In this document: positions 42,229 through 56,880 of the stretch, piece by piece
Numbering within the stretch: the stretch's first letter is position 1
Layout: each line of letters begins with the position of its first letter
Assembly (NCBI GenBank): GCA_029262515.1
Contig: JAJCZH010000026.1
Location: 1-64,000 of the forward strand
From: Deltaproteobacteria bacterium
Lineage (GTDB): Bacteria; Desulfobacterota; GWC2-55-46; JADFVP01
DNA length: 64,000 nucleotides
Direction of reading: 5' to 3'
Position numbers and translations under genes: made by a program
The notes under the pieces: generated by a model
What the model saw: only the letters and a program-made list of their open reading frames with translations
Databases searched by the model: none
What the model was told of the DNA's origin: nothing

Positions 42229-43254
42229 TTACTTATCGTGACAGGTTCTGCATACTGCGCTACCGGAGTTACCGCCCACGCGGCGAAGAAAGTTGCCGTC
42301 CGTACACTCCTCGCCGCTCGGCCCCCCGCTATTGCACCACTCTAGATTAAAGAGGCCGGTGTTCCAGTCAGCTTCAACCTCGTCCCAGCTGAGATTTCTA
42401 AAGTGCGGGTCATGGCATGAAGTACACTCTACCTTTCCGTCACGAAGCAGATCGGCAATAGTAGCGGTATCGGAAATAAACCCGTTGACAGCCCAGCGGT
42501 TCTGAGACATGTTATTGAGCAGTGCCGGATCACCTGAGCCGCTCAACTCACTAACGAGATCGATAGATGCGATAACAGTGTTGGGCGGTCTTAACCCGTT
42601 ATCAGTAAGACCTTCATTATAAAGTATCGACACCGGGTGGTCATTAGTGAGGTCGGTGCCGACCGAGAGCCTGTCTGCCGGGTTCTCGGGGCCGGGACCG
42701 TACATAAAGAGGGTATGACATAAGAAACACGTTCCGGTCTCGGAAGTATCGAAATGGTCCGACTGAACAGAGCCAAATCCAAATATCGGCATTCTGAAAG
42801 CCCAGTTACGGTCCTGCCCGCCAGCTACTATTCCATCTTTACCCGGTGTGTTAACTATAGTATCCCACGTAGTGATTCCGTCATGGCACGACAGGCATGC
42901 AAGTGAAGTTGAGCCAATATCCGTACTATTTACCGTAGTACCACTTGATGTGGTTCCATAAGCGGTAAAAGCGGTGAGCGCCTGAGAACCTCTGTTCCAA
43001 AGAGGCCGGATGGGATTTACGCCGGCACCTCTATTCGCGAAGTGCGGAGTATGACAAAAGATACAGGCCTCGGTAGTTATATTCGGATCAACAGTAATAA
43101 GCCGCCCATAGTTGCCCATATTATGGCGCGATGACATGATACCGCTTGCAGCGATTCCTGACGGATAGTCATCTACCGTAGTTGCACCGGCATACGGTAC
43201 TGATACAGATACCGAAAGAGATATAAAAAGTATCATAAGTACTCTTACAATCAT
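42229..43254 (-). CDS. Five-heme c-type cytochrome 1
   Basis: A 341-residue secreted protein (signal RVLMILFISLSVSVSVPYAG). Five CxxCH heme sites: CIFCHTPH, CLSCHDG, CFLCHTL, CTSCHDPH, and CRTCHDK at the very C-terminus. It is a paralogue of the cytochrome at 43739, with conserved blocks such as GIAASGIMSSRHNMGNYGR and SDTATIADLLRDGKVECTSC. Between hemes it is Gly/Asn/Ser-rich. Presumed periplasmic electron carrier; partners unknown. The ATG overlaps the stop of a 10-codon upstream frame, and the leader carries a terminator. Confidence 0.88.
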   Translation of the reverse strand: MIVRVLMILFISLSVSVSVPYAGATTVDDYPSGIAASGIMSSRHNMGNYGRLITVDPNITTEACIFCHTPHFANRGAGVNPIRPLWNRGSQALTAFTAYGTTSSGTTVNSTDIGSTSLACLSCHDGITTWDTIVNTPGKDGIVAGGQDRNWAFRMPIFGFGSVQSDHFDTSETGTCFLCHTLFMYGPGPENPADRLSVGTDLTNDHPVSILYNEGLTDNGLRPPNTVIASIDLVSELSGSGDPALLNNMSQNRWAVNGFISDTATIADLLRDGKVECTSCHDPHFRNLSWDEVEADWNTGLFNLEWCNSGGPSGEECTDGNFLRRVGGNSGSAVCRTCHDK

Positions 43255-43283
43255 AAAATCGGCCTATTCCGGTCACCGGCCAT
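43251..43283 (-). other. Ten-codon upstream frame, cytochrome 1
   Basis: ATG to TGA encoding MAGDRNRPIL; its TGA overlaps the cytochrome ATG (ATGA). The same arrangement occurs at cytochrome 2. There is no clear Shine-Dalgarno before it, so translation is uncertain. Confidence 0.3.
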
Positions 43284-43395
43284 GAGAGACCCGGGATTTA
43301 TGCAAAAAAAAAGCCAGCAATACATCCAAAAAGGAGTACTGAGGCGCTCATTACCAATAAGTAACAGCCCACCGTGAGCCGAAACAACAAACATG
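43255..43395 (-). promoter_or_regulatory. Attenuator-type leader of cytochrome 1
   Basis: A ~140-nt 5' leader between the promoter and the cytochrome start, conserved in sequence and order with 44735-44876. It contains a hairpin with GCUC/GGGC core (43365-43381), the intrinsic terminator (43304-43345), then CCGG-loop-CCGG near the start codon. No known riboswitch consensus was recognised. Confidence 0.7.
43304..43345 (-). terminator. Intrinsic terminator within the cytochrome 1 leader
   Basis: RNA arms GCC-U-CAGUAC-UCC and GGA-U-GUAUUG-CU-GGC with a U5 loop (43313-43345), followed at once by nine U (43304-43312). It lies between promoter and start codon, so it must be bypassed for expression. 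Confidence 0.8.
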
Positions 43396-43401
43396 ATATA
43401 A

Positions 43402-43430
43402 ACTATACAATAAATTTACTTAATAGTCAA
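43402..43430 (-). promoter_or_regulatory. Sigma-70-type promoter of cytochrome 1
   Basis: TTGACT (43425-43430) and TATAGT (43402-43407), spacer exactly 17. The expected start is ~43395, 140 nt before the cytochrome ATG. Confidence 0.75.
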
Positions 43431-43738
43431 ACTATTATATCATCTACCAGCACTGTAAATATGTAGAAAAGGTATAAAAATCAAAGAAAATATGCAATAT
43501 CACATCAGAACATGTTATAGCATTGCAGTAAGTAGCATTATGGAATCAATGTATCATGATACATCAGATTGACAAATTGAAGTGTTTGCTTACCACGCAT
43601 CCAATAGAACAAAACCTGGCGAGCACCGTAACTGGCCAAGATATATATTAGTATAATTTGGTCGTGCCTGTATTTCGCTTGCAGCGAACCATATGGCAGA
43701 TAGAGTAGATTAATAAAGATAAAAGGAGGTTGTACAGG
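43431..43738. other. Intergenic region between the two cytochromes
   Basis: No gene is seen. It holds a perfect 16-bp palindrome ATGTATCATGATACAT at 43549-43564, about 120 bases upstream of the cytochrome 1 promoter, a possible operator. CCATATGG at 43690 with CGCTTGCAGCG next to it is shared with the 3' flank of cytochrome 1. Confidence 0.45.
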
Positions 43739-44734
43739 TTATTTTTCGTGACAGGTTCGGCATATGCCGCTTGCCGAGTTGCCTCCAATTCGTCTCAGGA
43801 AGAGACCATCGGAACAATCTTCCAAGTCACTACACCAACCTACTCCACTTGTCGGGGGTGGTATAATATAAGTCGAGTCGGCCTCGTCCCAGCTCTTGTT
43901 GCTAAAATGCGGATCGTGACACGAGGTACACTCTACCCTGTCGTTGCGTAAAAGATCTGCTACGGTGGCAGTATCGGATATAAATCCTTTTACAGCCCAT
44001 CGGTTCTGCGAAAGATTATACAGCAGCGCCGGATCACCTGAGCTGCTCAACTCACTAACGAGATCGATAGATGAGATAACTGTGCTGGCCGGTCTTAACC
44101 CGGCGTCAGGAAGAGCTTCGTTGTAGAGTACAGAGACCGGGTGATCGTTCGACAGATCGGTTCCTATATTCATACTTGATATGTAATCAAGACTATAAGT
44201 CGTAGCCGCATTATGACACAACGAACAGATTTGGGAAGGACCGGTATGAAAAGCATCAAGGGTGACAACATCCATATTCGGATAGATGGCGCCGAACGGC
44301 ATATTAAAACCCCAGCCCCTGTCCGCTCCGCCCTGAGTTATTCCGCCCTTACCCGGAGTATTTACAATGTCGTCGAAGGTTGTCACGCCATCATGACAGG
44401 AGAGACAAGCGAGTGACGGACCGGCGACAGTGCTTACATTACTGCCGCTGATAGTCGACCCATAAGCGGTAAATGTGCTACCGGGTGTGCCCCTGTTCCA
44501 TAAAGGGCCTTCTGATGTGCTCGAATGATGAGGCGTATGACAGAAAATACAGATTTCGGTAGTTGAACCGGTTCTTATAACCCTGCCGAACGCACCGAGG
44601 TTGTGACGGGAAGAGACTATACCGCTTGCAGCGAGTCCTGTAGGGTAGTCATCTACCGTCAACGCATCGGCATCCTGTGCTGAGACAGTTACCGAAACAG
44701 ATATAAAAAGTATTATAAGTACTCTTCCAATCAC
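43739..44734 (-). CDS. Five-heme c-type cytochrome 2
   Basis: A 331-residue paralogue of the cytochrome at 42229. GTG start, signal peptide RVLIILFISVSVTVSAQDADA, and heme sites CIFCHTPH, CLSCHDG, CSLCHNA, CTSCHDPH and terminal CRTCHEK. The region between hemes 2 and 4 is the most diverged. Tandem duplication included the 5' leader and part of the 3' flank. Maturation is presumably by the system II genes immediately upstream (45415-49261). Confidence 0.88.
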   Translation of the reverse strand: MIGRVLIILFISVSVTVSAQDADALTVDDYPTGLAASGIVSSRHNLGAFGRVIRTGSTTEICIFCHTPHHSSTSEGPLWNRGTPGSTFTAYGSTISGSNVSTVAGPSLACLSCHDGVTTFDDIVNTPGKGGITQGGADRGWGFNMPFGAIYPNMDVVTLDAFHTGPSQICSLCHNAATTYSLDYISSMNIGTDLSNDHPVSVLYNEALPDAGLRPASTVISSIDLVSELSSSGDPALLYNLSQNRWAVKGFISDTATVADLLRNDRVECTSCHDPHFSNKSWDEADSTYIIPPPTSGVGWCSDLEDCSDGLFLRRIGGNSASGICRTCHEK

Positions 44735-44763: not shown

Positions 44764-44876
44764 GAGAGAACCGGGATTTATGCAAAAAAAAAGCCAGCAA
44801 TACACCCTAAAAGGAGTACTGAGGCATTCGTTGCCGGTAAGTGACGGCCCACCGTGAGCCGGTACAAACGTCTACT
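44735..44876 (-). promoter_or_regulatory. Attenuator-type leader of cytochrome 2
   Basis: Homologous to the leader at 43255-43395. In the hairpin at 44845-44861 a G-U pair of copy 1 is G-C here, and the terminator loop-closing pair changes U-A to U-G, so the differences keep the minus-strand RNA fold. Confidence 0.7.
44784..44825 (-). terminator. Intrinsic terminator within the cytochrome 2 leader
   Basis: Arms GCC-U-CAGUAC-UCC and GGG-U-GUAUUG-CU-GGC around a UUUUA loop (44793-44825), followed by nine U (44784-44792). Confidence 0.8.
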
Positions 44877-44882
44877 TATATT

Positions 44883-44911
44883 ATTATACAGTAAAGCCGA
44901 GCAACCGTCAA
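44883..44911 (-). promoter_or_regulatory. Sigma-70-type promoter of cytochrome 2
   Basis: TTGACG (44906-44911) and a perfect TATAAT (44883-44888), spacer 17. The expected start is ~44876. Confidence 0.8.
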
Positions 44912-54785: not shown

Positions 54786-56156
54786 TTACTTGGCGCTCGC
54801 CTGCTCCGCCAGCTGTGCCTGTTCCTGCTGTGCCTGTTGATTCTGGCGAACCCTCAATTTACCGAGCCGTATCCACTGCAAAAGCGGCCTTTTTGACGGA
54901 CAGACATAAGAGCAACAGCCGCACTCAATACAGTCGAAACCGCCCCAACCGTTAAAATCATCGAGGCGCTGCATGTTTCCGTAATCGCCCAGCCTGTACG
55001 GCATAAGCGCCATAGGACAGGCCTCAACGCAACTTGCGCACCGAATGCACGCATCATACTTCTTCGGTTTGATGACTTCGCCCATAAGGGCCGTTATGCC
55101 AGAAGTACCTTTTATGACAGGAACATCGAGCTGCATCTGGGCTATACCCATCATAGGGCCGCCGTTCAGAACTTCGAACTCGCCGCCCTCTTTAAGTCCG
55201 CCGCACTGCTTTATGATCTCCTCAAAGGTAGTGCCTATTCTACAGAGCAGGTTTTTCGGCTCCTTAATACCGTTGCCGCTGACCGTTACCACCCGCTCGA
55301 TAAGCGGCTTGCCGTAATTGAGGGCATCGAAAATCGCGGCTGCCGTGCCTACGTTATTTACAACCACGCCAACGTCGAGTGGAAGTTTGCCCTTTGGAAC
55401 CTTGCGGTTTAAGGCGGCCTTTATAAGCATCTTCTCAGCACCCTGCGGGTACTTTGTCTCAAGCTCTATAACTTTTATATCGGTGCAGGACGGGCCGAGC
55501 GCCAACTTTATCGCCTCAATCGCATCCTTCTTATTATCCTCAATACCTATAAAACCGTTTGGCGCTCCTACGCCCTTCATAAGCGCGCGCATGCCCCAGA
55601 CAACCTTGTCAGCCTCTTCGAGCATAATTCTGTGGTCGGCCGTAAGGTACGGTTCGCACTCGCAGCCGTTAAGGACGATGGTATCTATCTTCTTTCCCTT
55701 CGGCGCATTGAGTTTTACGGCGGTCGGAAAACCGGCCCCTCCCATACCAACAATACCGCTCTCCCGTATGGTCGTGCGAATAGCGTCAGGAGTAAGGGAG
55801 GCTAGATCTACCGTAACCCCGCCTGATGTGCCCCAATCCTTCTTCTCACCGTCTCCGGTTATTACGATGGAGGGCACCTTCATGCCGACCGGGTGTTGAT
55901 AGAGGTCTATCTCTTTGACCTTTCCACTTATAGACGCATGAATAGGGGCTGAGACAAAGGCCTCCACATCGGCGATCTTCTGCCCCTCTTCTACCACATC
56001 ACCCTTCTTGACCAAAGCGGTACAGGGCGCGCCGGCGTGCTGCCTCAGAGGGATTATGACGGTCTTTGGAAGCGCCGCCGGGGTAATCGCCTTTGAAGAG
56101 GCCAGCTCTTTGTTATAAGCCGGGTGTATGCCTCTATCGAATGTTTTTAAGCCCAT
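54786..56156 (-). CDS. rnfC: Rnf complex subunit C
   Basis: The NADH-interacting peripheral subunit with FMN and two [4Fe-4S] clusters. GIVGMGGAGFPTAVKLNAP and NGCECEPYLTADHRIM form the nucleotide region; CIRCASCVEACPMAL and CIECGCCSYVCPSKRP hold the clusters. Length 456, ending in a short Gln/Ala-rich tail (QQAQQEQAQLAEQ). It is the first gene of rnfCDGEAB. Confidence 0.95.
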   Translation of the reverse strand: MGLKTFDRGIHPAYNKELASSKAITPAALPKTVIIPLRQHAGAPCTALVKKGDVVEEGQKIADVEAFVSAPIHASISGKVKEIDLYQHPVGMKVPSIVITGDGEKKDWGTSGGVTVDLASLTPDAIRTTIRESGIVGMGGAGFPTAVKLNAPKGKKIDTIVLNGCECEPYLTADHRIMLEEADKVVWGMRALMKGVGAPNGFIGIEDNKKDAIEAIKLALGPSCTDIKVIELETKYPQGAEKMLIKAALNRKVPKGKLPLDVGVVVNNVGTAAAIFDALNYGKPLIERVVTVSGNGIKEPKNLLCRIGTTFEEIIKQCGGLKEGGEFEVLNGGPMMGIAQMQLDVPVIKGTSGITALMGEVIKPKKYDACIRCASCVEACPMALMPYRLGDYGNMQRLDDFNGWGGFDCIECGCCSYVCPSKRPLLQWIRLGKLRVRQNQQAQQEQAQLAEQASAK

Positions 56157-56880
56157 AATTTTATTGGAGTTGAACTTTTATCAGTACCATTATACCGCCC
56201 ATTTAATCAAGAAAATTTTACTCTTGAATCAAGAAGCAGGCAGGCACAAAAAAACCGTGCGAACAGATACAGAAGCTCTTAAAGAGCCCCGCAAATGCCC
56301 AGACGGTCGGCAACCTACATATAACTTCCGCTCCACGGTGGTTCTATCCACCCAGTATCCCGTCAGTCACGAAAGTGTTTATATTTAATATACAGTAAAA
56401 GCTAAAAAGGGGCTTCTGTCAAGTAGTTCATATGAATAATGACTGTTTTTATGCCACAGTAGCACGGCAGAGAAGTGTCAATGGTACATAGTACACCTAC
56501 TTACTGCGCATCATCGAGGAAGTCATAGGTTTACCGATTAACAAAGGTATTAAAACTCCCGAAACAAATAATGGGCACAACCCAACCTGCATGGCTGTAG
56601 GACACCTTATAGTATTACAAAAAAATATATACACACAACCGCAGAAGTCTTACTGAGGCCTTAATATCATAAATGCAAAAAAACGGCATTAAAATTCTCT
56701 ACACTTACAGATAACTTAATAAACCACTAATATATGTGAATTAATTGGAATTCAGGTACTTATGCGCATTCATTCTAGTTATTTTTCTTACATTTCTTAT
56801 GCACTTTAAAAAATCAGAAGTTATGGCTTTTTTGCCTATCTAGTTAATAAAATCAGCCAGTTAGAAAGCATATGCAAACT
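56157..56880. other. Gene-poor region upstream of rnfC
   Basis: No intact gene. On the minus strand GGTATAATGG (56192-56201) is a possible rnf -10 without a good -35, and TTCTTGATT occurs twice (near 56208 and 56229), the outer one within CTTGATTCAAG, a possible operator. From ~56510 the plus strand reads LLRIIEEVIGLPINKGIKT in frame for about 50 codons to a stop, without a start, perhaps a gene remnant. A REP-like fragment (CAACCCAACCTGCATGGCTG) lies at 56579-56598. Confidence 0.4.

Follow-up and report, generated by a model that had tools for sequence, protein, structure and literature searches.

Outside a few models such as Geobacter and Shewanella, little is known about how bacteria regulate the production of multiheme cytochromes. 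In Geobacter, GEMM riboswitches for c-di-GMP or cGAMP precede cytochromes (PMC6456294, PMC8835794). Another kind of RNA-level control is found in the ANTAR dual-hairpin antiterminators, such as EutV/eut of Enterococcus, NasR/nasF and AmiR/amiE (PMC3369931, PMC8934654), whose targets carry two promoter-proximal stem-loops, the second with a 3-bp stem whose 3' strand is common to an intrinsic terminator. Targets of EutV follow the consensus AGC-AANGRR-GCUY, with 3-bp stems, and in the EutV crystal structure G4 of the loop is read by the protein, while A1 makes no specific contact (PMC3369931, PMC8934654). ANTAR targets have been defined as two stem-loops joined by a linker of 2–25 nt, and in actinobacterial ANTAR RNAs the reported conservation of both A1 and G4 is merely above 50% (PMC8164766). 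An antitermination regulator of respiratory genes is also known in Bradyrhizobium, where NasT controls nap and nos (PMC6759348). No report of ANTAR antitermination linked to multiheme cytochromes was found in the open-licence literature searched. Here, we describe cytochrome leaders which, in our reading, probably constitute an ANTAR-type attenuator of an electron-transfer regulon; this reading rests on comparison, with no binding or transcription data.

The window, that is, the whole stretch of DNA that was analysed, comprises 64,000 nucleotides of a Deltaproteobacteria bacterium (GenBank assembly GCA_029262515.1, contig JAJCZH010000026.1, positions 1 to 64,000). The first leader and its gene are laid out as follows:

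43402–43430, minus strand: sigma-70-type promoter of cytochrome 1, TTGACT-17-TATAGT, its placement relative to the RNA element kept in homologues
43365–43381, minus strand: P2, the first hairpin, CGGCUC-ACGGU-GGGCUG, with loop core A-N-G-R
43343–43355, minus strand: P3, the second hairpin, GGU-AAUGAGC-GCC, with three base pairs, its 3' strand GCC also belonging to the terminator
43313–43345, minus strand: intrinsic terminator hairpin, folded energy -13.2 kcal/mol
43304–43312, minus strand: terminator U tract, nine U directly after the terminator stem
42229–43254, minus strand: cytochrome 1, a multiheme c-type cytochrome of 341 aa with paired CXXCH motifs and an ATG start

The promoter agrees with the consensus at 10 of 12 positions, and transcription is expected to start near 43395, about 50 nt before the terminator. 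A sequence-only reading of the region had claimed this arrangement, namely a 17-spaced promoter, then some 50 nt of RNA and a nine-U terminator, and finally another 50 nt or so before the start codon; the claim held, the distance from the last U to the ATG being 49 nt. With a stem followed immediately by a run of U, placed between promoter and gene, the criterion for a transcription attenuator is met. The pattern scanner missed this terminator, the stem of which has an internal loop, and the site that it did list, 43381–43365, is the first regulatory hairpin rather than a terminator. No promoter-like site between the terminator and the cytochrome 1 gene was listed by the promoter scan. On its own, the scan was barely above chance (21 promoter-like matches in the region against 13.3 ± 3.2 expected), so that the question was left to comparative evidence. 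At 43550–43563, about 120 bases upstream of the promoter, there is a perfect 14-base palindrome, TGTATCATGATACA; it is the sole copy in the window, allowing up to one mismatch, and could be a regulator site. The segment from the U tract to the start codon (43255–43303) is conserved between the two neighbouring cytochromes of the window and can fold G+C-rich hairpins near the start, which leaves room for a second, translational layer of control.

The second of these cytochromes lies upstream, and its leader, which shares 88% identity with the cytochrome 1 leader, repeats the same layout:

44883–44911, minus strand: promoter of cytochrome 2, TTGACG-17-TATAAT
44845–44861, minus strand: P2, the first hairpin
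44823–44835, minus strand: P3, the second hairpin, GGC-AACGAAU-GCC
44793–44825, minus strand: terminator hairpin, -12.9 kcal/mol
44784–44792, minus strand: U tract of nine U
43739–44734, minus strand: cytochrome 2, 331 aa with a GTG start, of the same family as cytochrome 1

The possibility that the hairpin before cytochrome 1 serves as the terminator of the upstream cytochrome 2 gene was considered and rejected, since it sits behind a conserved promoter; this gene-terminator reading was also rejected on the ground that the element precedes other genes elsewhere.

Leaders matching that of cytochrome 1 precede its orthologues both in a congener and in another family within the order, and the upstream regions of cytochrome homologues revealed the element in many genera. 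A first covariance model (R1) was built from an alignment of 24 leaders, all of cytochromes and including both from the window; of the 48 genomes of the order, 34 gave matches with this model, at slightly more than 100 places in total, and the source genome accounts for seven of these places. A second model (R2), built from 77 copies, found the element in 41/63 genomes of the class. Of 395 genomes sampled from the phylum, 12 gave a match, 11 of them within the class; outside the class, only one of about 380 sampled phylum genomes carried it. A distant blastn search of a plasmid collection gave no match, and protein-based retrieval from named genomes returned one distant acidobacterial relative, in which the element is absent. 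By downstream gene, the 77 copies are divided among cytochromes (46), a PocR-GAF-GGDEF diguanylate cyclase (18) and other genes or contig ends (13), some of the contig-end copies showing the start of a cytochrome. The element was found by R1 before orthologous PocR-GAF-GGDEF genes, one per genome in many genomes, with E values of about 1e-11 to 1e-4, and in the source genome such a copy lies at C20:65962. Because R1 had been trained on cytochrome leaders only, these matches constitute independent support. A -10 box lies upstream of the element in 51 of the 77 copies, in 38 of the 51 at 20–25 nt before P2, so that transcription should start upstream of the terminator. Computational comparison, in the absence of transcription data, thus shows that the cytochrome leader is a real, conserved attenuator. 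The inference of the sequence-only reading that a terminator in this position calls for antitermination is supported, and the reading is extended from one gene to a class-wide regulon.

The consensus structure consists of P2, GGCUC-ANGRY-GGGCC, and P3, GG(C/U)-loop-GCC, separated by a variable linker of 5–15 nt. Compensatory changes occur in four of the five pairs of the P2 stem (76 distinct sequences). In P2 and the terminator taken together, 91.2% of the pairs are standard, double-change cells number 197 where shuffles give 58.9 ± 8.6, and covariation is 0.478, compared with 0.198 ± 0.011 in shuffled alignments and at most 0.14 when the pairing is slid; the alignment had been fitted to the model, and is therefore biased towards it. 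Over the full set there is also support for an outer stem, P1, in 52/77 copies against 36.1 ± 3.7 with shuffled partners. The pairing of P3 is kept in nearly all copies, but is mostly invariant, without double-sided covariation in its three core pairs; covariation thus neither proves nor disproves P3, and invariance is what would be expected of a strand that pairs in two structures. As for the loops, that of P2 has G in 77/77 and A in 75/77 copies, and can be read either as a hexaloop, N-A-N-G-R-Y, or as a pentaloop closed by C-G; P2 hexaloops occur in five leaders (L118, L122, L127, L180 and L182), and in other families of the class P2 can form a hexaloop, in f8 and f11 for example GAUGGU or GAUGAA, and P3 can be GAUGAU. 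The loop of P3, of 5–8 nt and mostly 6 or 7, has A-N-G in 76/77 copies and G at position 4 in 75/77. Position 1 is variable in P3 (G 43, A 20, U 9, C 5) and mostly C in P2.

Since the GCC strand is both the 3' strand of P3 and the base of the terminator, the two folds are mutually exclusive. When P3 is forced, the terminator loses its three basal pairs, and a gap of five nt separates what is left of its stem from the U tract. This costs 3.4–3.7 kcal/mol in the cytochrome 1 leader and almost nothing in that of cytochrome 2, and the median difference between the P3 and terminator states over the 77 copies is 2.0 kcal/mol. From these folding energies, it is predicted that a modest stabilisation of P3 would flip the switch.

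These features agree in several respects with the ANTAR dual-hairpin antiterminators. The cytochrome element, too, has two promoter-proximal stem-loops with a second stem of three base pairs, a near-invariant G4 in the loop, a linker within the reported range and a second hairpin whose 3' strand also belongs to an intrinsic terminator. Compared with the EutV consensus, A2, N3, G4 and R5 are shared, but position 1 differs: the A1 criterion of canonical targets is not met, P3 having A1 in only 20 of the 77 copies. The lack of specific A1 contact in the EutV structure suggests that A1 may be dispensable here, although this is an inference. Further differences from canonical or known ANTAR targets are the P3 loops that are not all hexaloops, the extra outer stem in many copies, the nature of the controlled genes (multiheme cytochromes and a diguanylate cyclase), and the existence of receiver-less ANTAR genes adjoining the target. 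As position 1 is mostly G or C, the element is best regarded as a probable variant of ANTAR targets rather than as a textbook member. Bradyrhizobium NasT offers a parallel as an antitermination regulator of respiratory genes, but there, in an alphaproteobacterium, the genes controlled serve denitrification, and the leaders are not those of multiheme cytochromes. The resemblance to Geobacter lies in RNA-level control in c-type cytochrome leaders, and not in the RNA itself, which has another architecture and no covariance match to GEMM.

ANTAR proteins accompany the element. ANTAR domains were found in all 47 genomes of the order that were tested and in none of 14 controls. Some genera possess small stand-alone ANTAR proteins (about 100–160 aa, with no receiver), and 14 of 15 such genes adjoin a cytochrome of this family, several of them in the same direction and just downstream; the one exception has a cytochrome c peroxidase-like gene nearby, a gene named from sequence reading only. 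In the 77-copy set, the leaders located beside stand-alone ANTAR genes number five, and they alone have C as the first base of the P3 loop. This match is suggestive, but with only two genera involved it does not amount to a test. The stand-alone proteins examined have no aromatic residue at position 164, and for this reason may bind differently, if they bind at all. No stand-alone ANTAR was found in the source genome, which encodes two receiver-ANTAR proteins, and one of these, the response regulator at C4:3066-3713, is proposed as the reader there. The C4 protein retains the EutV RNA-contact residues around G4 (R142, K143, K147, K149 and E160, with Y164 as F); it is without M172, N173, R175 and R177, the loss of which abolished binding in EutV. 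Among good genomes, a C4-type receiver-ANTAR is present in 30/31 with the element versus 10/14 without it (p = 0.027, uncorrected for phylogeny), while the other ANTAR paralogue shows no association with the element (p = 1). The C4-type co-occurrence test is a weak one, and in several genomes a C4-type protein is present with no element detected.

In the proposed mechanism, the nascent RNA would by default fold the terminator, with its GCC/GGC base directly against the nine U, and transcription would stop after about 90 nt. An activated ANTAR dimer would bind both small hairpins through their loops and hold the GCC strand in P3 (GGC-loop-GCC). The terminator would then lose its three basal pairs, the upper stem would no longer abut the U tract, and the polymerase would read on into the cytochrome gene. 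ANTAR binding, antitermination rather than termination, and the C4 protein as reader in the source genome are all inferred.

The main rival to this mechanism is a new metabolite riboswitch, in which the two hairpins would form a ligand pocket and the ligand, perhaps a cyclic dinucleotide, a haem-related compound or a redox ligand, would stabilise P3 against the terminator. In its favour, Rfam searches of the window, at gathering thresholds and with E up to 5, gave neither GEMM nor any other relevant family at the leader, and the homologous leaders had no relevant Rfam match either; moreover, a GGDEF cyclase is among the two main targets, which echoes cGAMP/GEMM control of cytochromes in Geobacter (PMC6456294, PMC8835794), and P1 has support across the full set. 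Against it, near-invariant bases besides the switch strand and the U tract are few, being confined to the two loops and the adjoining stem pairs, and the linker ranges over 5–15 nt, which one would not usually expect of a ligand pocket; and the stand-alone ANTAR genes beside cytochromes are left unexplained. We consider this explanation unlikely, but it cannot be excluded. A bolder form, in which one small ligand couples the cytochromes with the PocR-GAF-GGDEF cyclase and the adjoining ANTAR genes act elsewhere, also seems improbable. The sequence-only reading had left a riboswitch, a protein-bound attenuator and a processive antiterminator as candidates and had seen no GEMM consensus. The latter point held, as the covariance scan matched no known riboswitch class at the leader, and the comparative evidence favours a protein-bound attenuator of the ANTAR type. 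Elsewhere in the window, a ZTP riboswitch (Rfam RF01750, 59 bits) is located at 56290–56380 on the minus strand, about 130 nt upstream of an RnfC-like gene (54786–56156), which we take to be part of an rnf operon headed by this riboswitch, the gene names coming from sequence reading only.

A very unlikely alternative is control of termination by some other RNA-binding protein, most obviously CsrA, that recognises AUGGA-like loops. AUGGA is a CsrA-type core; it is found in the second loop of many copies, and CsrA is encoded in the source genome. However, many copies have A in place of the second G of GGA (AUGAA, ACGAA, AUGAU), so that the loops do not satisfy the GGA-core criterion, and CsrA is absent from the complete element-bearing genomes G018, G033 and G009, with no association overall (p = 0.53). 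On these two grounds, loop variation and absence from complete genomes, CsrA was rejected as the regulator. Also hard to sustain is the view that there is no switch, so that the terminator would merely leak without being regulated, or a small RNA would be the end product. Short transcripts of about 90 nt from the promoter are expected under any model, but this view is opposed by the conserved dual hairpins, the common GCC strand, the near-balanced energies and the occurrence of the element before two different gene families in many genera.

If the ANTAR-type attenuator is confirmed, many cytochromes of a whole class, along with a diguanylate cyclase, would be under one RNA-level switch. The element would further offer many natural ANTAR-like targets whose loop code differs, together with receiver-less ANTARs that adjoin their presumed targets, which makes the rules of loop recognition directly testable. 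The regulon is possibly wider than the cytochromes and the PocR-GAF-GGDEF gene. Lower-scoring model matches lie before other genes in L109, L118, L120, L122 and L125; the gene downstream of L109 encodes a receiver-GGDEF protein (Pfam), that after L122 is taken to be a pilin-like protein, and those after L118, L120 and L125 are taken to be other genes, in these last four cases by sequence reading only. In the source genome, further leader copies (L110, L111 and L114, on contigs C2, C17 and C11) lie near contig ends before near-identical cytochrome starts, a pattern that may point to a repeated cytochrome gene which broke the assembly. In L032, from about position 820, several tandem copies of a short unit follow downstream of the terminator; the unit includes GGCTCACGCAGGTGGGC, a sequence resembling the P2 hairpin.
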